Of a stretch of 34,710 nucleotides of DNA, positions 2,179 to 22,601 are shown one piece after another. Positions within the stretch are counted from its first letter, which is position 1. Each line of letters begins with the position of its first letter. The stretch is from NCBI GenBank assembly GCA_001782475.1, contig MFOT01000011.1, positions 1 to 34,710 of the forward strand. Direction: 5' to 3'. A model generated the notes under the pieces. The model was not told the origin of the DNA, searched no databases, and saw nothing but the letters and a program-made list of their open reading frames with translations. Origin of the DNA: Candidatus Levybacteria bacterium RIFCSPLOWO2_01_FULL_38_21. Lineage in GTDB: Bacteria > Patescibacteriota > Microgenomatia > Levybacterales > UBA12049. The position numbers and the translations under genes are program-made.

Positions 2179-4083
2179 TTATTTATTTAAAACAGGAGGG
2201 GTGAAGGGAGGATTTTGACTCGAAGACGGACTAGGATTTTGTTCGACCGCACTCACCGGTTCAACAGGTGAAGTATCTTGAGGAGTTTTTCCCAAAGAGG
2301 ATTGATCTTGCTCTTTGGCAAGTTCCTGCGGATTTGAGGTAATTATGCTATGCTCAAAAGGAGCTGCAATTACTTTCATAACCACATGGCTTTGTCCGGC
2401 AAAAAACAAACCTTCGCCTACATCCGAAGAAAGCAGTAGCTCCTTTTCCCCCTCGGACAGATAAAAAACCTTAGTAATTAAATCAATTTCAGTCGGACTC
2501 TGCTTAAGAAGCATTTGAATTGAGGAATTTGACAGTACTGCTTTGCCATAGTCTGTTGATAAAAAATCCTGCACATCCTGAGTAGCAGTTGTTAGAGCAA
2601 GGTAATATTTTCGTGCGCGCTTGGCAATCCCATAAACAAAAGAAGCAGAATCTTCATACTTCATAATATACCAGGCCTCATCTAAGATAAGAAGCCTTTT
2701 TTTAAGCCTTTTTCTTATTCTTGTCCAGACAAAGTCCAATATAATGTGCATGGCAATTGGCCTTAGCTCTTCTTCTAAGGCTTTTATGGAAAAAGCAGTA
2801 AAAGGATTTGTTATGTCAAAGTTTGACTGCTGGTTAAATATGCCGCTTAAGCTCCCTTTTATAAATTTTTCCAAACGGAGAGCAAGATTTCTAGCCGTCT
2901 GGTCTTCCATGCCGATTAAAACTTTATAGAGATCTTCCATCAAGGGAGGTTGCTTTTTTTGAGTTGCAGGATCTGCGGTTATCCCCTTTTGCCTATAAGT
3001 TTCAACCAGCGCTCTGTCAAGTATCGCATCTTCTTGGGCATCCAATTTTCCCATAACAATTCCTAAAAGTCCGTGAAGAGATAAAATCTTAAGTCCCAGT
3101 TCGTTTTCTCCCTCTTCATAAAGGCCTGATAAATCAAACGGGTTTACTTTTATTGGAGCAGATGGGGTAAATGAAGCATATTCCCCTCCAAGCGTTCGCG
3201 AGAGCGCCTCATATTCACCCTCAGGGTCTATAATTATCACCTCTGTCCCGAACATAAACTGCCTTAGCGCCTCAAGTTTAATAAGATATGATTTTCCAGC
3301 ACCGGATTTTCCTAGAACAACTTCGTTAGCATTCTCTAGAGAATATCTGTCAAAAATAATTAAGGACCCATTCTGCTCATTTATTCCGTACATTATTCCC
3401 CTATCTTGCGTAAGTGTCGCAGAAGTAAAGGGGAAGGTTGAGGCAAGTGATGTTGTATCCATGTTTCTTGTTATGTAAAGCCTGTCCACTCCAATTGGAA
3501 TTGTAGATTTAAATCCGTCTTCCATCTGCAAAGTTGCAGTTTTTGTTATAAGAAGAATCGATGAGAGGGTTGAGGTAAGTTTTTTTGACGCCTCTTCCAA
3601 ATCGGCAAGAGTTTCTGAAAAAAGTGTTATATAAAGAGAGAATTGGAAGAATCGCTCAACTCCTTTTGCAAGCTGCTCCTGAAGAGAAAGGGCATCTTCC
3701 AGTGCCGCCTGAACCTTTGGATCGACTATTTTCCCCTCTTCTGTCTGGGATGATATAGTTGCTTCCATCTCGGCGATCTTCCTTCGAATATCAGATAAAA
3801 CGTCATTTGATGAGGTTGGATAACAGAACATTGAAATATTTAAAGAGTGGTCAAAATCAATAAGAGGAGAAAGCCAATTGGGAGAAACAAAGCGAGGGTA
3901 GCCAACAATAAAAAACGTTTTATAAAAATAACTCCCAACTCTTATATAGTTAAAATCAACTTCAACAGAGGAAGGAGCTATAATATCCACAAGAGACATA
4001 GTTCCTTTCTCAAGCTTTGCCAGTCCAGGAAAAGCTGTTTGGGGAGAAGGCAAAGAAACCTGTTTTTGGCCAAACAATTTCAT
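2179..4083 (-). CDS. virB4: VirB4/TraC-family T4SS ATPase
   Basis: The 634-residue product has a Walker A GKSGAGKS at about 258-265 and a Walker B RLLILDEAW at about 463-471. After these come RARKYYLALTTATQDVQDFL and QMLLKQSPTEID, all typical of the VirB4/TrbE/TraC ATPase that powers pilus assembly and substrate transfer at the cytoplasmic membrane. It is shorter than typical VirB4 (about 800 residues). Part of the N-terminal region may be supplied by the separate gene just upstream, whose stop overlaps this ATG by 4 nt (ATGA), implying coupled translation. The last ~45 residues are a Gln/Pro/Ser-rich tail. Coupling ATPase VirD4 and VirB11 are not visible. Confidence 0.9.
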   Translation of the reverse strand: MKLFGQKQVSLPSPQTAFPGLAKLEKGTMSLVDIIAPSSVEVDFNYIRVGSYFYKTFFIVGYPRFVSPNWLSPLIDFDHSLNISMFCYPTSSNDVLSDIRRKIAEMEATISSQTEEGKIVDPKVQAALEDALSLQEQLAKGVERFFQFSLYITLFSETLADLEEASKKLTSTLSSILLITKTATLQMEDGFKSTIPIGVDRLYITRNMDTTSLASTFPFTSATLTQDRGIMYGINEQNGSLIIFDRYSLENANEVVLGKSGAGKSYLIKLEALRQFMFGTEVIIIDPEGEYEALSRTLGGEYASFTPSAPIKVNPFDLSGLYEEGENELGLKILSLHGLLGIVMGKLDAQEDAILDRALVETYRQKGITADPATQKKQPPLMEDLYKVLIGMEDQTARNLALRLEKFIKGSLSGIFNQQSNFDITNPFTAFSIKALEEELRPIAMHIILDFVWTRIRKRLKKRLLILDEAWYIMKYEDSASFVYGIAKRARKYYLALTTATQDVQDFLSTDYGKAVLSNSSIQMLLKQSPTEIDLITKVFYLSEGEKELLLSSDVGEGLFFAGQSHVVMKVIAAPFEHSIITSNPQELAKEQDQSSLGKTPQDTSPVEPVSAVEQNPSPSSSQNPPFTPPVLNK

Positions 4084-4718
4084 AACGAAACACTGCTTCT
4101 TACGATTGGAGTTTTTATCTCGTCTGTTATCTGATTTATTTCAACCGCGTCCCCATTATAAATTTCATAAAAAAACTTTATTAATTCTTCTTTTTGAAGA
4201 ATTTTTGCGCGCAGGTTAAGTCTTGCAATTTGAGACAGGACAGATTCGGCTTTTGAGGCAAGAGAAGTTTTGGCCTGATTTAAAAAAGAATCCGAAGATA
4301 CCATTACACCCTTTTCTAAATATGAGTAGGGAATTATTATGTAAAATTTTTTATCCAAAACCGTATTCACTTTTACCAGCTCTTTTACAAAATCCCTATA
4401 AAGCTTAATTTGCGTTGAGAGGAGCTGATTTTGTGTTTCTTGAGCTTGAGAATCCAAAAGCTTTAAATAGGATGAGATATCAAGTTTCTTACTCCTTATA
4501 AAAATCTGGATTGGAAAAGACAGAGAGTTAAGTAAAGACGCATAGGAAAAAATTTTTGTGTCCTGCTCTTCTTTTGAAAGAAGGGCAAAATTAGTCGAGT
4601 TTACTTCAATAACAAGAGCAGCATTTTTGCCAGATATAATAACTATATCGTCTTCGATGTTCTCAATCTCAATAAATTTTTGAGTTGTTGCCTTTTTCTT
4701 TTGGGCAGGTTTTATCAT
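4080..4718 (-). CDS. TraC-like T4SS protein (possible split VirB4 N-terminal module)
   Basis: This 212-residue soluble protein has FIEIENIEDDIVIISG near the N-terminus, then SLSFPIQIFIRSKKLDISSY and KKFYIIIPYS. This pattern occurs in the N-terminal region of VirB4/TraC-type proteins and in TraC-like proteins that Patescibacteria encode next to virB4. It has no P-loop. It overlaps prgI upstream and virB4 downstream by 4 nt each, so the three products are probably made together in fixed proportion. I infer that it docks on VirB4 or PrgI at the membrane. The family call is moderate because no single diagnostic motif exists. Confidence 0.65.
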   Translation of the reverse strand: MIKPAQKKKATTQKFIEIENIEDDIVIISGKNAALVIEVNSTNFALLSKEEQDTKIFSYASLLNSLSFPIQIFIRSKKLDISSYLKLLDSQAQETQNQLLSTQIKLYRDFVKELVKVNTVLDKKFYIIIPYSYLEKGVMVSSDSFLNQAKTSLASKAESVLSQIARLNLRAKILQKEELIKFFYEIYNGDAVEINQITDEIKTPIVRSSVSL

Positions 4719-5999: not shown

Positions 6000-6040
6000 G
6001 TTAAAATGGCTATATAGCTAAATAGCTACATAGTTAATTT
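6000..6040. repeat. Iterated TAGCTA-type repeat
   Basis: Consecutive imperfect units of the form TGGCTATATAGCTAAATAGC fill the gap between prgI and the four-helix-bundle gene and run into the end of the latter. Similar units recur at 6413-6455 and 6541-6600, so this gene is bracketed on both sides. Confidence 0.7.
6009..6037 (-). promoter_or_regulatory. Possible promoter of the prgI-virB4 set, built from iterated repeat
   Basis: On the minus strand TTAACT and TATAGC (4/6 matches each to sigma70 consensus) are 17 nt apart. The -10 ends 10 nt before the prgI ATG. Both boxes lie in the iterated TAGCTA repeat, and the -35 overlaps the end of the four-helix-bundle gene upstream. Weak match; listed because the spacing equals that of the better promoters here. 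Confidence 0.3.
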
Positions 6041-6415
6041 TTCCTCCGTTATTTTGATAAGCCAATTTATTTCTTTTGGTAATTTATTAAGTGTAGTAAC
6101 AATATGCTGGTATTCTCTTGAATTTATTAACTTTCTTTTTTTTGATTTTTCTGTCCAATAAATCGCTTCATACAAAGATCCTCGTGCATTATAATAGAAT
6201 TTTTGTTTGTCCTTTTTATGGTATCGTCCAAATCCTTCAGCTATATTTCCACCGACAGAATCAATTGCACTTACAAATTGAACGCCTAAGGTTCTCTTAT
6301 TAAGCCAATCCCATTTTGAAACCAAATCCCAAGCATAATCGGAAATCTTATCGGCGATTGTATATGCATTAATATTCTCAAGTCTTAAAAAACTCTTCCC
6401 CATAGAACCAACCAT
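6026..6415 (-). CDS. Four-helix-bundle protein (S23/23S rRNA intervening-sequence family)
   Basis: The product has 129 residues and the family signature: DLVSKWDWLNKRTLGVQFVSA, then SVGGNIAEGFGRYHKKDKQK and YNARGSLYEA. These small helical proteins were first found inside intervening sequences of 23S rRNA genes, and free-standing copies are common in Patescibacteria and Bacteroidota. Their function is unknown; a nucleic-acid-binding role is often proposed. The ATG at 6401-6403 (MGKSF) is an alternative start. It lies between the pilin operon and prgI, bracketed by iterated repeats, and looks inserted into the T4SS locus. It is one of three such genes here. Confidence 0.85.
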   Translation of the reverse strand: MVGSMGKSFLRLENINAYTIADKISDYAWDLVSKWDWLNKRTLGVQFVSAIDSVGGNIAEGFGRYHKKDKQKFYYNARGSLYEAIYWTEKSKKRKLINSREYQHIVTTLNKLPKEINWLIKITEEKLTM

Positions 6416-6601: not shown

Positions 6602-6910
6602 TTAGCAGTTTCCAAATCCGAATTGTCTAATGCAGGTTACTCCTGTAATTGCGCTTATTATGTTTATAATTGCAAAAGATAAAATTATTATAACAAGACC
6701 GATTAGAGCATAGGTTAAAGTTTCTCTGGCAGATTTAATCTTCTCTTCTTCTCCCCCGGACGTTACATATTTAATGCCTGCATATATAACAAAAAAGAGT
6801 GCGGCAACACCTGCAAAAATCAAAGCCCAGTTTACAATGTTTTGAAAAACTACGGGAATGCAGTTTAAAGTTGCAACTCCCTCTGGCGAAAGGCAATTTT
6901 TCCAATCCAT
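6602..6910 (-). CDS. VirB2-like T4SS pilin, cysteine-bearing
   Basis: This 102-residue protein has two membrane helices (about 22-48 and 68-90) joined by a short loop with GIKYVTSGGEEEKIKSARETL. This is the loop pattern of the TrbC/VirB2-like pilins of Patescibacteria (G-x-K-aromatic-x-x-SGG, then AR). Cysteines at 6, 17, 93 and 102 lie outside the helices at both ends, so disulfides are possible. It has no long signal peptide, unlike its neighbour at 6958-7362. A -35/-10 pair ends 6 nt before the ATG, so the mRNA would be leaderless. A terminator follows at 6528-6553. Confidence 0.8.
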   Translation of the reverse strand: MDWKNCLSPEGVATLNCIPVVFQNIVNWALIFAGVAALFFVIYAGIKYVTSGGEEEKIKSARETLTYALIGLVIIILSFAIINIISAITGVTCIRQFGFGNC

Positions 6911-6916
6911 AAATTT

Positions 6917-6945
6917 AGATTAGCAAGTAGCAGTAAAAAAAACAA
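6917..6945 (-). promoter_or_regulatory. Promoter of VirB2-like pilin, predicted leaderless start
   Basis: Minus strand: TTGTTT, 17-nt spacer, then TAATCT preceded by TGC (extended -10). Transcription should begin about at the ATG (6910). No Shine-Dalgarno is present. Confidence 0.5.
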
Positions 6946-6957
6946 GAGAAAGAAGTA

Positions 6958-7362
6958 TTATTGAGGAGGAGTAAGCTTAGGTAATGCCAGTTCGGTTAGC
7001 TTAAGGCCAAAGAGCCCAAGAATAATATTCAAAATAAAGTAGGACAAAAATACAATAATTAGTCCCACGACTGCTGCAACAATGTGATTTCTTGCACTCT
7101 CAACATTTGTTTTATCTCCTCCTGATATAATCCATTTAATGCCTCCGAAGATAAGAAAGCCCAGGGCAATAACAACCGCAATTACAAAAAGAACAGTTAC
7201 GGCAGTACTTACTATTCCCCCAAAACTGGTATCTGTAAAAGTGCATAAAACACTAAATTTTCCTTCGGGACATGTTTTAACCGGAGTGTCGGCGGCAAAA
7301 GCCGAAGGAACTGCAAGGAGATAGGATGAAAATGCGGCTATTATGGCAATTATTTTTTTCAT
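6958..7362 (-). CDS. VirB2-like T4SS pilin with signal peptide
   Basis: The 134-residue protein starts with a signal peptide (MKKIIAIIAAFSSYLLA, probable cleavage after AFA near residue 23). A short exported segment holds two cysteines (CPEGKFSVLC). Two membrane helices follow with the loop GGIKWIISGGDKTNVESARN, the VirB2-like pilin loop of this group. A proline-containing tail ends the protein. Pilins of this family form the T4SS pilus after membrane insertion. It is the first gene of the unit with the pilin at 6602 and has the best promoter of the window directly in front of its ATG. Confidence 0.85.
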   Translation of the reverse strand: MKKIIAIIAAFSSYLLAVPSAFAADTPVKTCPEGKFSVLCTFTDTSFGGIVSTAVTVLFVIAVVIALGFLIFGGIKWIISGGDKTNVESARNHIVAAVVGLIIVFLSYFILNIILGLFGLKLTELALPKLTPPQ

Positions 7363-7372
7363 CTTTAGTTTA

Positions 7373-7401
7373 ATGCTACGATGATTTTTTTACTTTGTCA
7401 A
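7373..7401 (-). promoter_or_regulatory. Strong sigma70-like promoter of pilin unit, nearly leaderless
   Basis: Minus strand: perfect TTGACA, 17-nt spacer, TAGCAT. The -10 ends 10 nt before the ATG at 7362, so the leader would be about 4 nt. An AT-rich near-palindrome (7402-7421) lies just upstream. Confidence 0.65.
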
Positions 7402-7462
7402 GGAGGAAAAATTTAAAATTTTCCGACGAAGATCCTGCCAAGCTGCTCGAAGGATAGAGAAG

Positions 7463-7732
7463 TCAGAGCCTACTGGAATGTAACTTTTCCATTAACCACA
7501 TTCTAGCTAGTGTTGAAACATTTAAGCCCTTAGATCGAGCTGTCTTTTCAAGTTTATCTTTAAAGTCTTTTTGAAGACGGACTATCAATGTCTCATCTCT
7601 TGGTTTATCGAGTTCAAAAACAATATCCACATTCTCTGTCTCATCGGCAAAATCAGTAACACTATGTGTGTCCCAGAATCTTGTTTCCTCTTCATAAGTT
7701 TTAAATTTAGGGATTCTACTTTTCTTTTTCAT
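7463..7732 (-). CDS. CopG/BrnA-type antitoxin
   Basis: From the ATG at 7730-7732 the product is about 89 residues: MKKKSRIPKFKTYEEETRFWDTHS near the N-terminus, then ETLIVRLQKDFKDKLEKTARSKGLN and VSTLARMWLMEKL, a ribbon-helix-helix-like C-terminal part. The first part is typical of the CopG-like antitoxins that pair with BrnT-like toxins. The frame could open further up at 7762, but that lies inside the toxin gene; the 7732 ATG gives the usual short overlap (17 nt) with the toxin. The role is neutralising the toxin and repressing the shared promoter. Confidence 0.78.
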   Translation of the reverse strand: MKKKSRIPKFKTYEEETRFWDTHSVTDFADETENVDIVFELDKPRDETLIVRLQKDFKDKLEKTARSKGLNVSTLARMWLMEKLHSSRL

Positions 7733-7991
7733 ATATATCTTTCCCTTCTTTTTTACTTGCATCTCGAGCGGTAATTAGATAATATTTCCCCAGAGATATT
7801 CTTCTGATTACTAAGGTTATTATCCTCTTACCCACTCTCCCAACCGCCAGATATCTTCCTGTATGAGTTTTTCTGTGATAGAAAAAGTTTTTCCCAATCT
7901 CCTTGACTTCTTCTTTTGTAACATTATGCTTCTTGATATGTTTAAGGTTATACTCATCAAAGACTAAATACTTAACGGTGATTCTAGTCAT
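7716..7991 (-). CDS. BrnT-type ribonuclease toxin
   Basis: The 91-residue product contains YLVFDEYNLKHIKKHNVT, then GRYLAVGRVGKRIITLVIRR and YYLITARDASKKEGKDIY. This is the BrnT/COG2929 plan, a RelE-like fold ribonuclease: N-terminal W/FDExKxxHIxKHxV, central RxxxVG and C-terminal ITARxAxxxE. The toxin is first in the operon and the antitoxin second, as usual for brnTA. The pair sits between two pilin genes of the T4SS locus and is probably an insertion stabilising that locus. Confidence 0.82.
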   Translation of the reverse strand: MTRITVKYLVFDEYNLKHIKKHNVTKEEVKEIGKNFFYHRKTHTGRYLAVGRVGKRIITLVIRRISLGKYYLITARDASKKEGKDIYEKEK

Positions 7992-8020
7992 AGTGTATTA
8001 CAGTGTGATACTAATGTCAA
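7992..8020 (-). promoter_or_regulatory. Toxin-antitoxin promoter with direct-repeat operator
   Basis: Minus strand: TTGACA, 17-nt spacer, TACACT ending right before the toxin ATG; an alternative -10, TAATAC, is 3 nt further up. Two 10-nt direct repeats, GTATCACACT and GTAATACACT, fill the spacer and -10 (7992-8011). They are candidate binding sites for the CopG-like antitoxin. Confidence 0.5.
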
Positions 8021-8075
8021 TAGTGACCTAATTATTGCAGAATTAAAAATAGATTACAATAAGGATTTTTGAAGC

Positions 8076-8152
8076 AAAATGTTTTGGATTTTTGAATATT
8101 TAAATTTAAATATTGTTTAGAATTTAGAGTTTCGAATTTAGAATTTAAAAGA
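8076..8152. repeat. Iterated GAATTTAGAATTT-type repeat with 20-bp perfect palindrome
   Basis: Includes the perfect palindrome AATATTTAAATTTAAATATT (8095-8114) and tandem units of the form AGAATTTAGAGTTTCGAATT. It lies just after the pilin gene ending at 8145. The same class occurs at 22606-22672 and 19086-19116. Confidence 0.6.
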
Positions 8153-8456
8153 ATTTTATATTAAAAAATCCACTGACAAAATTTATTATAAAGAAAGCCA
8201 AAAGTACTACAACAAGTCCTACTACTGCGTAAGTTAACTTGAGTCTTGCCTGTTCTATTCTTTGTTTATCGCCGCCTGACACGATCCATTGTATTCCTCC
8301 CTGAATAAGATAAAAAAAGGTTATTACAATAGCACCTACAAAAAGTATAGTAATTCCAATTTGTATAATTTTCTGTCCTGTGTTAATTCCCCCGGTGGGA
8401 ACACCGCTCGGCGCATTTATCGGGATTCCACTTATTGAAAGAGATAGGTACTTCAT
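8145..8456 (-). CDS. VirB2-like T4SS pilin
   Basis: This 103-residue protein has two membrane helices (about 28-52 and 72-98) with the loop GGIQWIVSGGDKQRIEQARL, the same motif as the other pilins here. The N-terminus (LSISGIPINAPSGVPTGGIN) is polar and Gly/Pro-rich and should be outside. It is the third short VirB2-like pilin of the locus and is separated from the other two by the BrnT/CopG pair. The paralogues differ in their ends but keep the loop, which suggests different pilus subunits rather than simple copies. Confidence 0.78.
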   Translation of the reverse strand: MKYLSLSISGIPINAPSGVPTGGINTGQKIIQIGITILFVGAIVITFFYLIQGGIQWIVSGGDKQRIEQARLKLTYAVVGLVVVLLAFFIINFVSGFFNIKFF

Positions 8457-8515
8457 AAAAATTCAAATAACAAATCCCAAATTGCAAATAAATATCAAGC
8501 TCCAAAAATAAAAAA

Positions 8516-8872
8516 CTATTTATTAACTATTGACGAAAAAATTTTTTTAAGTTCAACAGCTTCATTAAAAAGAGCTAACCCCTCATTTTTATATTCTACA
8601 TCATTTATTTCGATAATCAACCGTAACCAGTAGGCAGATTCTTTTGCCTCTTTTCGGCAAATTTTTGTTCGCATCATAAAGTCTTTCTTACTTAAGGCTT
8701 CATTTGCCTCTATATAATTGGCTCCAATAGAGCCGGAAGATCTTATTAATTGTTTACCATCTTCTATATTTGTTATTGTTTTTGGAAGTTTTTTAACGAA
8801 TAATCTTATTTTTTTAGCAAATTCAAAAGTGCGGTCTTCTAGATCATAGGGTTTATTTTGATTTTGGCTCAT
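8516..8872 (-). CDS. Four-helix-bundle protein (S23/IVP family)
   Basis: The 118-residue product has DLEDRTFEFAKKIRLFVKKLP, then QLIRSSGSIGANYIEANEALSKKDF and RKEAKESAYWLRLI, the conserved S23-family core. It lies between two pilin-type genes. Its flanks (8457-8515 and 8873-8911) are low-complexity, with repeated forms such as AAATCCCAAATTGCAAAT. It is the second of three such genes inserted in the T4SS block and belongs to a different subgroup from the one at 6026 (short N-terminus, SSGSIGANYIEAN instead of GGNIAEGFGR). Function unknown. Confidence 0.85.
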   Translation of the reverse strand: MSQNQNKPYDLEDRTFEFAKKIRLFVKKLPKTITNIEDGKQLIRSSGSIGANYIEANEALSKKDFMMRTKICRKEAKESAYWLRLIIEINDVEYKNEGLALFNEAVELKKIFSSIVNK

Positions 8873-8911
8873 TGGATATTATTTGAGATTTGATGTTTGA
8901 TTTTTGGAATT

Positions 8912-10264
8912 TTATTTACCTAGTCCTGGGATTTTAAGGATATCAACCCCAATTATTTGCAAAATTACCAATGAGAAAATTATGAAGATAAGTCCGATTA
9001 TTGCGGCAACCAACTGATCTCTGGCTGCCTGCAATGCCTCTGGTTTTCCTTGCGATGCAATGAGCTGATACCCAGAATAAATAATAAGAAGAAGCGCAAT
9101 TCCTCCTGAGAGACCAAGAACAATACCAAAGATAGATTTTACAAAACCCGCAGGAGTTGTATCTATTTCTTCGGGAAATGCAGTTTTTACTTTTGCACAA
9201 CCACCACCAGGGCTTCGAAGAGAACAAGGCGGAGGAGGGGCTTTGAATGCATGTTCAATACCCTGGAGGTCTCTTCCGTTTGGGTCTGGTTCTGGTTTTC
9301 CGTCACAACTCGTAGAGTTTGGCGTTGGTTCTCCAATACAACCCTTCTCTGTTCCCACCTTAACTTTTATCCAGTAATAGGTAAAGCCTGCACTACAATC
9401 ACCACGGAATACACTTGAAAATGCCCCCTCATTCACTTGCTCATTAATTTTTATTAAATAATCTCCTTCTTCTTCTGGGCCAAACTCAACAATTCCCTGA
9501 TAAACTTTCTCACTGACCTTTTCCATAGTTGTGCATTTATATTCAATCAACTGATCTGGGTTAATTTGTTTTACAATCTCAACTGCATAGTTATTTCTAC
9601 CACCGTTATCGTATGGGCGTCTTGCCCCTATTATTTTTACTGTAATAGTATCTGAGGTTGTGGGATGAGGAGAAAGAAACGGGCCAACAAAAACCGTTGG
9701 ATAATAATGGACAACATAAATAGGTACCGTATCAATAACATTTTTAGGATTGTCTTTGTCGAGAATACTTACTCTATATGTATGCTGTCCCCAGAAATAA
9801 TCATTCTCCTCGCATCTAGGAGGCTCGCCCTGAGGCTCGCTTTTAGCTATTTTTAAACTTTCTTTTCCATCTGCGCAGACTGGGACATCAAGTATTCCAT
9901 GGCCTGACCCATCATCTTTAGCTGTTCTCTCTACAGATCTTCTTGCAGAACCGCCAACGCCAAATATACACGATTCTAAATCTGAATCAAGACACAAGTT
10001 GTAGGTTTTGTTAGCCACCAGACCTTTGAAGTGCACGATTACTGTATCTGTGTTTTCTGTAACGAGTGGAAGAGGCTCTCCCCCTGTCTGAAAACTCTCT
10101 GTTATGTCCTCCATTAGTTTTCTTGCGCTTGGATCAACTGGTTGGGGAGTAGGTTCATTTATAACTTCAATATCGTAGCTTGCAAAGGCTATTTTTTGGG
10201 GAAGGAAAATAAGTATTAGAAAAAGAAAAAATGCTATTATAGTTTTTGTAAAAATTCTTCTCAT
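8912..10264 (-). CDS. Exported protein with large ectodomain and C-terminal VirB2-like two-helix module
   Basis: The 450-residue product starts with a signal peptide (MRRIFTKTIIAFFLFLILIF). About 330 exported residues follow, beta-rich in character with many Cys, Pro and Gly, including PVYVVHYYPTVFVGPFLSPH-like strands and a C-rich proline segment. Residues ~362-450 are pilin-like: two membrane helices with the loop SGYQLIASQGKPEALQAARD, which aligns with the loops of the three short pilins. No ectodomain family is recognised. The architecture suggests a specialised T4SS subunit, for example a tip adhesin or a membrane-anchored pilus base. It is preceded by a -35/-10 pair that predicts a leaderless mRNA. 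Confidence 0.7.
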   Translation of the reverse strand: MRRIFTKTIIAFFLFLILIFLPQKIAFASYDIEVINEPTPQPVDPSARKLMEDITESFQTGGEPLPLVTENTDTVIVHFKGLVANKTYNLCLDSDLESCIFGVGGSARRSVERTAKDDGSGHGILDVPVCADGKESLKIAKSEPQGEPPRCEENDYFWGQHTYRVSILDKDNPKNVIDTVPIYVVHYYPTVFVGPFLSPHPTTSDTITVKIIGARRPYDNGGRNNYAVEIVKQINPDQLIEYKCTTMEKVSEKVYQGIVEFGPEEEGDYLIKINEQVNEGAFSSVFRGDCSAGFTYYWIKVKVGTEKGCIGEPTPNSTSCDGKPEPDPNGRDLQGIEHAFKAPPPPCSLRSPGGGCAKVKTAFPEEIDTTPAGFVKSIFGIVLGLSGGIALLLIIYSGYQLIASQGKPEALQAARDQLVAAIIGLIFIIFSLVILQIIGVDILKIPGLGK

Positions 10265-11661: not shown

Positions 11662-11712
11662 AGCAATTAGCAACTAGAAACTAGCAACTAGCCACTAGTC
11701 GCTAGAAACTAG
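11662..11712. repeat. CTAG-type iterated repeat between regulator and four-helix-bundle gene
   Basis: Units AGCAACTAGAAACTAGC, AACTAGCCACTAGTCGCTAG and AAACTAGTC fill the whole gap and overlap the end of the four-helix-bundle gene. A matching array is on its other side at 12084-12127. Confidence 0.75.
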
Positions 11713-12082
11713 TCTTCTTTTGGTCGTTTCTAATATTTGTAATCATTTTATTTAACATTCTCATAATCTCACCCAGTTTTGATATTAGAATTGTATAATC
11801 TCTTTCTTGCAGAATTTCTATATTTTTGGCTATTTCCAGTTCAGTTTCAAGTTCTGCGCCCGATGCAAATGCAATTTGCAGAAATTGTCTGAATTCGGCT
11901 CTTCCTCCTCTACAGAAACCCTCAGCAATATTAGAGGGAATCGAGAAAGCAGCTCTTCTTATCTGATTGATTAAGCCATATTGTTCTGACTTTGGGAAAG
12001 ATTTAGTTACTTGAAATACTAGAGTTGCCAACTCCATCGACTTTTGCCAAACAATCAATTCTCTGTAAGATTTTACTTTCAT
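11702..12082 (-). CDS. Four-helix-bundle protein (S23/IVP family, classical form)
   Basis: The 126-residue product is a textbook member: YRELIVWQKSMELATLVFQV, then FPKSEQYGLINQIRRAAFSI, PSNIAEGFCRGGRAEFRQFL and ASGAELETELEIAK. The family forms four-helix bundles (often pentamers) of unknown function and is related to the Avd accessory protein of diversity-generating retroelements; no reverse transcriptase is present here. The gene is bracketed on both sides by CTAG-type iterated repeats, and one array runs into its 3' end. This is the clearest of the three repeat-bracketed copies. Confidence 0.9.
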   Translation of the reverse strand: MKVKSYRELIVWQKSMELATLVFQVTKSFPKSEQYGLINQIRRAAFSIPSNIAEGFCRGGRAEFRQFLQIAFASGAELETELEIAKNIEILQERDYTILISKLGEIMRMLNKMITNIRNDQKKTSF

Positions 12083-16635: not shown

Positions 16636-16722
16636 GGAGGAGTGCAAGAGCGGTTTATTTGGCCGGTCTCGAAAACCGAGCGAGTCGTAAGACTCACAGA
16701 GGTTCGAATCCTCTCTCCTCCG
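16636..16722 (+). tRNA. tRNA-Ser(CGA)
   Basis: Acceptor GGAGGAG pairs with CTCCTCC. The anticodon loop CTCGAAA gives anticodon CGA (reads UCG). A long variable arm (GAGTCGTAAGACTC) and T-loop GGTTCGAATCC are present, with discriminator G. CCA is not encoded; the next bases are CAACGTAATAAATTAC. The long variable arm confirms a class II serine tRNA. Confidence 0.95.
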
Positions 16723-16737
16723 CAACGTAATAAATTA

Positions 16738-19123: not shown

Positions 19124-19210
19124 GGTGGGATGGCTGAGTGGACGAAAGCGCACGCTTGGAGAGCGTGTATGATCGCAAGATCATCCCGGGTTCGAATCCC
19201 GGTCCCACCG
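19124..19210 (+). tRNA. tRNA-Ser(GGA)
   Basis: Acceptor GGTGGGA/TCCCACC, anticodon stem-loop CACGC-TTGGAGA-GCGTG with anticodon GGA (reads UCC/UCU), long variable arm ATGATCGCAAGATCAT, T-arm CCGGGTTCGAATCCCGG, discriminator G, no encoded CCA. Followed directly by the conserved trailer hairpin. Confidence 0.96.
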
Positions 19211-19241
19211 CAACGTACAAAATCAGTGATTTTTACGTTGC
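19210..19241. repeat. tRNA trailer hairpin shared by convergent tRNA-Ser(GGA) and tRNA-Arg
   Basis: Arms GCAACGTACAAAATC and GATTTTTACGTTGC around loop AGT, with a one-base bulge (C) in the first arm. It begins at the discriminator base of one tRNA and ends at that of the other. The copy at 21606-21637 is identical except for the 3-nt loop. It probably works as a bidirectional terminator or processing signal. Confidence 0.8.
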
Positions 19242-19313
19242 GTGCCCGAGAGGAGTCGAACCTCCAACCGCCTGGACCGCAACCAGGTGTTCTATCCTTT
19301 GAACTACGGGCAC
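19241..19313 (-). tRNA. tRNA-Arg(GCG)
   Basis: Minus strand: acceptor GTGCCCG/CGGGCAC, D-arm GTTC/GAAC, anticodon stem-loop CCTGG-TTGCGGT-CCAGG, T-arm GGAGG-TTCGACT-CCTCT, discriminator G. The total is 73 nt with no encoded CCA. The anticodon at positions 34-36 is GCG, which reads CGC/CGU. Most bacteria instead use ACG, edited to inosine by TadA. Confidence 0.88.
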
Positions 19314-20849: not shown

Positions 20850-21230
20850 CTATACTTTAACTAGCCAGTTTACTATATAAGCCGAAACGGGCAGATAAAT
20901 AGTTTCCGAAATCATGCCAGCAATTGCTTCTTTCCAAGAGTAATTCGGACCGATTGCTTGGCCGGCTTCGCCAATAACAAACATCAACCACCAAATGAAA
21001 GTATATAAAAACCAATGACCGCCTAACGAATTACGAGCAAAATAAAATATCAGAACAAACGCAATAGCCGTACCGATTTTTGAAACAAACACGCTGAGTA
21101 AAAACATTAATGGCGAGGCTCCTTCAGGCGGTTTTAGCCCGAAAAGCACCGAAGAAAGTCCATACACAATAAAAGGAATGATATAAATAACCGCCAAAAC
21201 AAGAATTATGCTTAATGGTATCTTTGTCAT
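20850..21230 (-). CDS. Unknown four-helix integral membrane protein
   Basis: The 126-residue protein has about four membrane helices: LSIILVLAVIYIIPFIVYGL, MFLLSVFVSKIGTAIAFVLI, FLYTFIWWLMFVIGEAGQAI and a C-terminal TIYLPVSAYIVNWLV. No family is recognised. Its ATG overlaps the TGA of an XRE-regulator remnant (ATGA), so it was once translated together with a small DNA-binding protein. Regulator plus small membrane protein pairs are common, and this one has lost most of its regulator. Confidence 0.65.
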   Translation of the reverse strand: MTKIPLSIILVLAVIYIIPFIVYGLSSVLFGLKPPEGASPLMFLLSVFVSKIGTAIAFVLIFYFARNSLGGHWFLYTFIWWLMFVIGEAGQAIGPNYSWKEAIAGMISETIYLPVSAYIVNWLVKV

Positions 21231-21306
21231 ATTTTTATTAATTCCTCAATTGAAACGCCCAACGCTTTGGCGATTTTCGCCATAGTTTGAATTAGCTCCT
21301 TAAGTT
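21227..21306 (-). pseudogene. C-terminal remnant of an XRE-type HTH regulator
   Basis: Minus strand encodes LKELIQTMAKIAKALGVSIE followed by ELIKI and TGA. The MAKIAKALGVSxEEL pattern is the last helix-turn of XRE domains. The N-terminal two thirds of the domain is missing because the frame runs into the end of the GIY-YIG gene, which suggests that the GIY-YIG cassette replaced it. Confidence 0.6.
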
Positions 21307-21558
21307 TTAACTTAAATAATTTATTAAAATCTTTTTGATATTTCTAAATCCCCAGCCCGATTTTAAATATATTTCTCGTGCTTTTGCATCTTTCCGATTT
21401 AAAAATGCCTCATAAAAAATGAGTTTATATGGCCTGAATGGTTTAGTAGCCTTGCTTTTTCCTTTATTGTGTTCTTTTAGACGATTAGAAACGTCTTCGG
21501 TATAGCCGATATATAAACTTTGGTTCTTTTTACTTTGCAAAATATAGACGAAGTACAT
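21307..21558 (-). CDS. Small GIY-YIG nuclease-family protein
   Basis: The 83-residue product is a single GIY-YIG domain: YFVYILQSKKNQSLYIGYTE, SNRLKEHNKGKSKATKPFRP, YKLIFYEAFLNRKDAKARE and a C-terminal LKSGWGFRN. The first Tyr pair (YVYIL, YIGYT), the Arg and the Glu in REIYLKSG are kept, so a functional endonuclease is possible. Such small proteins (UPF0213/YhbQ type) are abundant in Patescibacteria. It is 8 nt downstream of a hairpin that follows tRNA-Ser(UGA), the same order as the truncated copy at 22300-22419. Confidence 0.87.
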   Translation of the reverse strand: MYFVYILQSKKNQSLYIGYTEDVSNRLKEHNKGKSKATKPFRPYKLIFYEAFLNRKDAKAREIYLKSGWGFRNIKKILINYLS

Positions 21559-21566
21559 ATTTTAAG

Positions 21567-21605
21567 TGGCGAAACGTACAAATTACTGTGCAATTTAACG
21601 TTCCA
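21567..21605. repeat. Second hairpin of the tRNA-Ser/GIY-YIG unit (copy 1)
   Basis: Minus strand: TGGAACGTTAAATTG, loop CACAG, TAATTTGTACGTTTCGCCA. Homologous to 22422-22464 (shared ends TGG-A/G-ACGT and ACGT-YTCGCCA). Lies between the trailer hairpin and the GIY-YIG start. Confidence 0.65.
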
Positions 21606-21637
21606 GCAACGTAAAAATCTCCGATTTTGTACGTTGC
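21606..21637 (-). repeat. tRNA trailer hairpin of tRNA-Ser(UGA)
   Basis: Minus strand: GCAACGTACAAAATC, loop GGA, GATTTTTACGTTGC. Identical to 19210-19241 except for the loop. Starts at the discriminator base of the tRNA. Confidence 0.8.
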
Positions 21638-21723
21638 GGAGAGGGTGGGATTCGAACCCACGGTTACCTTACAGTAACAAAGGTTTTCAAGACCTTCTCC
21701 TTAAACCGCTCGGACACCTCTCC
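21637..21723 (-). tRNA. tRNA-Ser(UGA)
   Basis: Minus strand: acceptor GGAGAGG/CCTCTCC, anticodon stem-loop AAGGT-CTTGAAA-ACCTT with anticodon TGA (reads UCA and, by wobble, UCG/UCU), long variable arm GTTACTGTAAGGTAAC, T-arm GTGGGTTCGAATCCCAC, discriminator G, no encoded CCA. A TATAAT (21732-21737) is 8 nt upstream of the 5' end. Confidence 0.96.
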
Positions 21724-22299: not shown

Positions 22300-22419
22300 C
22301 TATCTAATTGTTTCAAATAGACGCCTTTTAATAAAGATTCCCTCTCTTAAATTAGTAGTGTAGCCGATGTAAAGACTCCTATTTTTGAGACTCTTGAGAA
22401 TATAAACATAGTAGAACAT
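22300..22419 (-). pseudogene. Truncated GIY-YIG nuclease ORF
   Basis: Minus strand ATG at 22417-22419 codes MFYYVYILKSLKNRSLYIGY, then TTNLREGIFIKRRLFETIR and TAG. The first 25 residues are a clear GIY-YIG N-terminus related to the intact gene at 21307-21558. The rest of the domain, including the catalytic Arg/Glu region, is gone after TTNLR. It lies 2 nt downstream of a hairpin that follows tRNA-Ser(GCU). Too short to be a nuclease. Confidence 0.8.
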
Positions 22420-22421
22420 GA

Positions 22422-22464
22422 TGGCGAGACGTAATAAATTTGTCGAACAAATTTAAACGTCCCA
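22422..22464. repeat. Second hairpin of the tRNA-Ser/GIY-YIG unit (copy 2)
   Basis: Minus strand: TGGGACGTTTAAATTTG, loop TTCGA, CAAATTTATTACGT, then CTCGCCA. Same end sequences as 21567-21605, but different inner stem, so pairing is kept while sequence changes. Confidence 0.7.
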
Positions 22465-22515
22465 GCAACGTTTAACGTAAATTTTGCTTATCAAAATTTT
22501 ACGTTCTTACGTTGC
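22465..22515 (-). repeat. tRNA trailer hairpin of tRNA-Ser(GCU), enlarged
   Basis: Minus strand: GCAACGTAAGAACGTAAAAT, then TTTGATAAGCAAAATTTACG and TTAAACGTTGC. Outer arms GCAACGT/ACGTTGC as in the other copies, with an extra ACGTAAAATTTTG/CAAAATTTACGT inner stem. Confidence 0.75.
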
Positions 22516-22601
22516 GGAGAGGGTGGGATTCGAACCCACGCGAGCCTTACGGCTCAGGGGATTAGCAATCCCCCGCAATGGACCAGCTATGCGACCTCTC
22601 C
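22515..22601 (-). tRNA. tRNA-Ser(GCU)
   Basis: Minus strand: acceptor GGAGAGG/CCTCTCC, anticodon stem-loop GGGGA-TTGCTAA-TCCCC with anticodon GCT (reads AGC/AGU), long variable arm GAGCCGTAAGGCTC, T-arm GTGGGTTCGAATCCCAC, discriminator G, no encoded CCA. Confidence 0.96.

Follow-up and report, generated by a model that had tools for sequence, protein, structure and literature searches.

Why does a nearly identical short hairpin follow different tRNA genes of one small genome? The window in which this question arises, 34,710 nucleotides long, is the whole of contig C11 of a Levybacteria-type genome of 0.79 Mb in 28 contigs; the only named relative obtained for a protein of the window, at 68% identity, comes from a Levybacteria MAG. 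At 19210-19241 (+) a hairpin with arms GCAACGTACAAAATC and GATTTTTACGTTGC and the loop AGT sits between the convergent genes for tRNA-Ser(GGA) and tRNA-Arg(GCG), its outer pair being the discriminator G of both. The 32 nt fold at -12.4 kcal/mol (z -4.9) with one unpaired C, the conserved bulge described in a first-pass annotation of this DNA. The recurrence after tRNA-Ser(UGA) claimed there was confirmed by a near copy at 21637-21606 (-), with the loop GGA, and the 15-mer arm occurs at exactly these two hairpins genome-wide (backwards control 0). All five tRNAs of the window (Ser CGA, GGA, UGA and GCU; Arg GCG) do run on from the discriminator G into CAACGTA. The accompanying remark that CCA is not encoded is correct for these five but not beyond them, several other tRNAs of the genome encoding it. 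The relevant features are listed here, where R1 denotes a covariance model trained on copies that follow G73, and HP1 and HP2 are the hairpins of the complete element.

16636-16722 (+): tRNA-Ser(CGA)
16722..16735 (+): decayed HP1 5' arm, directly 3' of tRNA-Ser(CGA)
19124..19210 (+): tRNA-Ser(GGA), G73 at 19210
19210..19241 (+): single hairpin, a partial copy comprising the HP1 half (R1 E 8e-6; fold)
19241..19313 (-): tRNA-Arg(GCG), G73 at 19241
21307..21558 (-): intact GIY-YIG nuclease ORF, 83 aa (Pfam PF01541, E 1.5e-17)
21567..21637 (-): complete twin-hairpin element (R1 E 3e-17; covariation; fold z -5.4)
21637..21723 (-): tRNA-Ser(UGA), G73 at 21637; left flank of the complete element
22342..22413 (-): truncated GIY-YIG remnant, 3' of the second element
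22422..22515 (-): second complete twin-hairpin element (R1 E 2.8e-15; fold z -6.8)
22515..22601 (-): tRNA-Ser(GCU), G73 at 22515

Two other parts of the contig deserve mention. The stretches 2179-4718 and 6602-10264 hold a long run of membrane and ATPase genes on the minus strand which, judged by eye from the translations, resembles a type IV secretion or pilus locus with a VirB4-like ATPase and small TrbC/VirB2-like membrane proteins. ORFs 6026-6415, 8516-8872 and 11702-12082 (-) look, likewise by eye, like four-helix-bundle proteins of the 23S rRNA intervening-sequence type.

From a single hairpin to a twin-hairpin element

The 3' flanks of the tRNA genes of the genome (44 by Rfam, 46 rows by ARAGORN) were collected, as had been proposed with the first-pass annotation. 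The hairpin is present at the 3' end of only six of about 44 tRNAs, namely the five of the window and tRNA-Arg(TCG) on contig C14, leaving some 38 without it, and tRNA-Cys carries it at the 5' end; therefore it is no general trailer signal, and the idea of a 3' motif common to the tRNAs of the genome was rejected. The motif GCAACGTA occurs ten times in the genome, against nine for its backwards control; six of the ten places lie within a 6-kb stretch of the window, three inside apparent coding DNA, and one is a remnant adjoining tRNA-Arg(TCG). The copy at tRNA-Arg(TCG) is a compensated variant (GCAGCGT..ACGCTGC), followed by a second hairpin, GAGACGT..ACGTCTC, which also lies 3' of the window's tRNA-Ser(UGA) and tRNA-Ser(GCU). 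Because these three copies share it, the unit is a hairpin pair. Three such twin copies stand at tRNA 3' ends of the genome and one at the 5' end of tRNA-Cys. The inverted second hairpin behind tRNA-Ser(UGA) and tRNA-Ser(GCU), and the GIY-YIG ORF after it, had escaped the first-pass annotation, as had the partial nature of the hairpin at 19210, which R1 scores at E 8e-6 versus 3e-17 and 3e-15 for the twins. A different interspersed palindromic family, with repeats of the TTCGGCAAGCTCAGGGCAAGC kind, opens several other tRNA trailers of the genome (G000:C25:17675, C28:3660, C14:46402, C14:66274).

The complete unit, as seen in relatives, measures about 75 nt and consists of two bulged hairpins in inverted orientation, with strong covariation. 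HP2 is HP1 inverted, and the two share the position of an asymmetric internal loop; in the copy at 21567..21637 (-), HP1 spans 21637-21606, the linker T is 21605, HP2 spans 21604-21571, and the repeated GC occupies 21570-21569. An alignment of 20 copies comprises 28 base pairs with 97% of cells paired and compensatory changes at 16 pairs, a result matched by none of 500 shuffles and compared with 38-43% in slid controls. Pairing is mostly strict Watson-Crick with few G.T; on the tRNA-sense strand G.T outnumbers A.C by 33 to 16, with 12 of the 33 G.T cells falling at one pair.

Distribution was followed outwards from the family. A pattern of T-loop, 11 bases and GCARCGT was found in 18 of 73 family genomes (backwards control 0), and most family genomes are devoid of the twin hairpin. 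Among 82 genomes of the order, the junction ACGYTGCTGRRACG occurs at 24 places, of which 23, judged by their flanks and including one tRNA cut by a contig end, lie directly 3' of tRNA-Ser or tRNA-Arg (L099 is the exception). R1 matches were obtained in 79 of 374 class genomes and in 10 of 380 genomes drawn across the phylum, three of them outside the class being strong (E 1e-17 to 7e-13); one of the loci outside the class, L281, has a twin hairpin with a GIY-YIG gene at a non-tRNA site. The 17-mer junction also matched 35 viral contigs; R1 found the element in none of these, spread by viruses was rejected, and the matches are probably due to chance.

We read 92 unique copies in context. They represent the top of the ranking by R1, a model that favours sites after G73 among its top matches, and the share at tRNA ends thus cannot be taken as unbiased; even so, copies are very strongly enriched there, given how little of the DNA lies at tRNA ends. 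Fifty copies stand precisely at the 3' end of a mature tRNA and 14, on the opposite strand, at a tRNA 5' end; three others terminate at the 3' end of an oppositely oriented tRNA, one is located at a tRNA-like end, and 24, about a quarter, are found apart from recognised tRNAs. The 3'-end hosts are mostly Ser, Arg and Asp tRNAs; Phe, Leu, Ala and Ile tRNAs contribute one or a few cases each. In genome G010 three tRNA-Ser genes bear the same twin hairpin, and the spacing between tRNA-Ser(CGA) and a Nudix gene is empty in some genomes and holds a twin hairpin in others.

The element ends match its target. Its two leading bases are the target's own: G73-C or A73-C for copies at tRNA 3' ends and, for those at 5' ends, tRNA positions 1-2 in reverse; overall the ends are the target dinucleotide GC, AC, GG or GT. 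In 84 of 92 copies the left dinucleotide has its complement in the 3' foot of HP1 (mean 48.2, maximum 60 in 10,000 shuffles), and the right end repeats the target dinucleotide in 87 (mean 53.9, maximum 65). Because GC is its own complement, the 25 copies at other targets are the informative ones; 23 of them have a complementary foot and 20 the right repeat, including GG and GT targets at non-tRNA sites. This pattern resembles a 2-nt target-site duplication combined with pairing between foot and target. The foot may either select the target or be rewritten to match it.

A linked GIY-YIG gene and probable traces of insertion

The ORF at 21307-21558 belongs to the GIY-YIG superfamily by its match to positions 1-70 of 78 of PF01541, well above cut-off; its sequence relatives in the PDB are UPF0213 proteins and, weakly, SLX1. 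Among its best 29 relatives in the 374 class genomes, an R1 twin hairpin lies directly upstream in all 29, and 25, a count that includes the window's own copy and leaves one locus unread, are within 200 nt of a same-strand tRNA. For 40 lower-ranked relatives R1 matched only at L188-L190 (60-62% identity). Most of these 40 also adjoin tRNAs (17 within 200 nt upstream, 9 just downstream) with other hairpins or none, and in L153 the ORF stands at a tRNA-Ser without hairpins. In a protein tree with few columns for many rows, a clade of moderate support has the R1 hairpin in 30 of its 35 members. In many copies the ORF starts a few bases behind HP2, and a role of HP2 in its expression is possible.

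Further observations concern the surroundings of these genes. At 21227-21306 (-), 3' of the window's ORF, a fragment (KLKELIQTMAKIAKALGVSIEELIKI) looks like the C-terminal end of an XRE/Cro-type HTH gene, its Pfam HTH matches all staying below cut-off. Such a fragment follows the ORF in three distant genomes (the window, L131 and L137), and in L137 a partial hairpin interrupts it. A GIY-YIG subfamily at L154, L157, L162, L165 and L192 has inverted hairpin pairs that differ in sequence from R1 (CACGTAAAATCC../..GGATCACGTG); another, at L155, L163, L166, L176 and L187, has pairs of a tRNA-Met-linked GGGGATATTAAAG.. type. These sequences suggest a separate hairpin family for each subfamily.

A few insertions retain displaced pieces of tRNA. 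Just behind the ORF, a tRNA 3' fragment of 16 nt was found in L133 and one of 18 nt in L141. In two loci of other GIY-YIG subfamilies, which lack the R1 hairpin, an exact 32-nt piece of the 3' part of tRNA-Phe (L182) and an exact 13-nt piece of that of tRNA-Gly (L168) follow the ORF; behind the ORF of the window no such fragment was found. A further, tRNA-Val-associated subfamily (L161, L170) shows an exact 5' fragment, 12-16 nt long, upstream of the ORF and an intact tRNA behind it. Genes of this second subfamily stand ahead of intact tRNA-Val or tRNA-Ile in L164, L170, L174, L161 and L181; the upstream tRNA 5'-half fragment, significant only in L161, L170 and L174, seems to carry a hairpin in its D-loop.

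Taken together, the observed anatomy, covariation, target match, location and nuclease-gene linkage lead us to favour, at a probability of roughly 0.7, the view of the hairpins as copies of a small mobile element seeking tRNA ends, with an autonomous form carrying the GIY-YIG gene and ORF-less copies moved in trans. The recent copying that the first-pass annotation offered as one of its options gains support from near-identical copies at different tRNA genes, from presence and absence at corresponding tRNAs of relatives, from the target-matched ends and from the linked nuclease gene. Its observation that the trailer starts exactly at the discriminator was right as to position; the boundary turned out to be that of the insertion. 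The window is then best explained by five insertions of the twin-hairpin element at differing stages of decay.

As to mechanism, we infer nuclease activity, cut site, repair route and trans-mobilisation. Insertion would occur precisely at mature tRNA ends, mostly between N73-C74 of tRNA-Ser, tRNA-Arg or tRNA-Asp and the downstream DNA. The non-coding part consists of the two inverted copies of one bulged hairpin, in the autonomous form with the endonuclease ORF directly behind. The target dinucleotide completes the outer HP1 stem and recurs at the right end in the manner of a 2-nt target-site duplication; because of this repeat, the tRNA stays intact. The GIY-YIG nuclease, which probably moves the element, would cut a tRNA gene at or within its 3' part, and the element would be installed when the break is repaired from a donor consisting of tRNA plus element. 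For a cut in the T-arm or acceptor, one side would be repaired from the donor junction of tRNA and element and the other side joined; the expected product, an intact tRNA, the element and a displaced tRNA 3' fragment, corresponds to what the few cases described above display. The hairpins, as extruded DNA or single strand, may serve as the recognised ends. About 70 of 93 twin hairpins have no GIY-YIG gene within 420 nt, and therefore mobilisation in trans must be assumed; ORF-less copies are best read as behaving like REPINs or MITEs.

It is tempting to go further and see here a new class of transposition system, in which a single-domain GIY-YIG protein would recognise twin bulged hairpins and specialise on tRNA termini, each subfamily having its own hairpins and tRNA set, with target choice by foot pairing that follows an IS608-like principle on an unrelated nuclease fold. 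We regard this extension as possible but doubtful.

Alternative readings and related systems

Two inverted bulged hairpins forming a unit are REPIN-like, and the twin hairpins might accordingly be REPINs that a RAYT-like Y1 (HUH) transposase moves, with the GIY-YIG gene simply located at the same tRNA site. Y1_Tnp genes are indeed present in 10 of 12 carrier genomes. The own genome has five (G000:C24:5046, C20:4689, C2:28086, C28:14287, C1:12636), none linked to a twin hairpin. The element is found at 0 of 16 Y1_Tnp loci, on which ground RAYT linkage was rejected; almost no Y1_Tnp locus lies at a tRNA, two carrier genomes (G029, G120) have no Y1_Tnp match, and the GIY-YIG linkage is without exception among the best 29. 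We consider this explanation unlikely.

Selection for an RNA-level function, as a dedicated terminator or 3'-processing element of tRNAs, would account for the exact start of the 3'-end copies at the tRNase Z site, for the strongly conserved structure and for the slight G.T excess over A.C, although 12 of the 33 G.T cells sit at one pair. Against it stand the absence of the hairpin from most tRNAs of the genome and most family genomes, the copies at tRNA 5' ends and at non-tRNA sites, the repeated dinucleotide and target-complementary foot at such sites too, and the linked nuclease gene. A terminator scan of the region does not list the hairpin, and the pattern of an intrinsic terminator or trailer, that is, occurrence after most tRNAs, only downstream of genes and ahead of a U run, was not found. 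The processing or terminator function put forward in the first-pass annotation is thus unsupported, and we judge it very unlikely. Duplication of tRNA genes with their trailers, or gene conversion among them, without a mobile element would fit the four tRNA-Ser genes within 6 kb of the window, the frequency of tRNA-Ser as host and the tandem tRNA clusters of relatives, but is highly improbable given the same element on Ser, Arg, Asp, Phe, Leu, Ala and Ile tRNAs, its occurrence at 5' ends and non-tRNA sites, and stems that vary among copies yet remain paired and target-matched.

The mobile element we favour has relatives in kind. Like REPINs or BIMEs with their RAYT (TnpA-REP), it is short and intergenic, built of two inverted imperfect hairpins, and combines presumed non-autonomous copies with one linked nuclease gene. 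By contrast, its nuclease is of the GIY-YIG type instead of a Y1/HUH transposase, its copies are few per genome and mainly at tRNA ends, and its ends are the target dinucleotide, no GTAG or CGTC tetranucleotide tag being found there. For the RAYT-related IS608, target recognition by pairing with a foot sequence is described (PMC5934647). REPs tagged with CGTC or GTAG are likewise palindromic units, often inverted dimers, the CGTC type having no known transposase (PMC3733652); tag and tail differ from those of our element, and they are not tied to tRNA ends or GIY-YIG genes.

Among free-standing GIY-YIG homing endonucleases, SegB of phage T4 is encoded between tRNA-Arg and tRNA-Ile, cut-and-repair is established for such enzymes, and I-TevI cuts 23 and 25 nt upstream of its own insertion site (PMC2988022). 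SegB-like genes share with our element the small GIY-YIG gene adjoining tRNA genes and a likely spread by cut-and-repair; the cutting distance of I-TevI is comparable with the 13-32 nt of the displaced tRNA fragments. Our element differs in having a chromosome as host, and we know of neither a twin-hairpin partner nor a repeated target dinucleotide for the T4 Seg genes. Mitochondrial double-hairpin elements and yeast GC clusters are tiny mobile hairpins flanked by direct repeats of 2-3 nt, for which an intron endonuclease has been proposed as helper (PMC4478555). They differ in having no physically linked gene and in residing, with other sequences, in other genomes. We know of no tRNA-end rule for them. 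Searches of an open-access library yielded no account of GIY-YIG genes or paired hairpins at the tRNA ends of CPR bacteria. Related kinds are known (REPINs, mitochondrial double-hairpin elements, free-standing GIY-YIG genes); the combination seen here is, within that library, apparently undescribed.

If our reading is true, the tRNA ends of Microgenomatia and of some other Patescibacteria harbour a widespread family of very small mobile elements, whose candidate enzyme is compact at about 83 aa. This family would account for the many small GIY-YIG genes of these reduced genomes, represent a bacterial counterpart of the mitochondrial double-hairpin elements, and offer a way to test whether a GIY-YIG enzyme can choose its site by hairpin-foot pairing.
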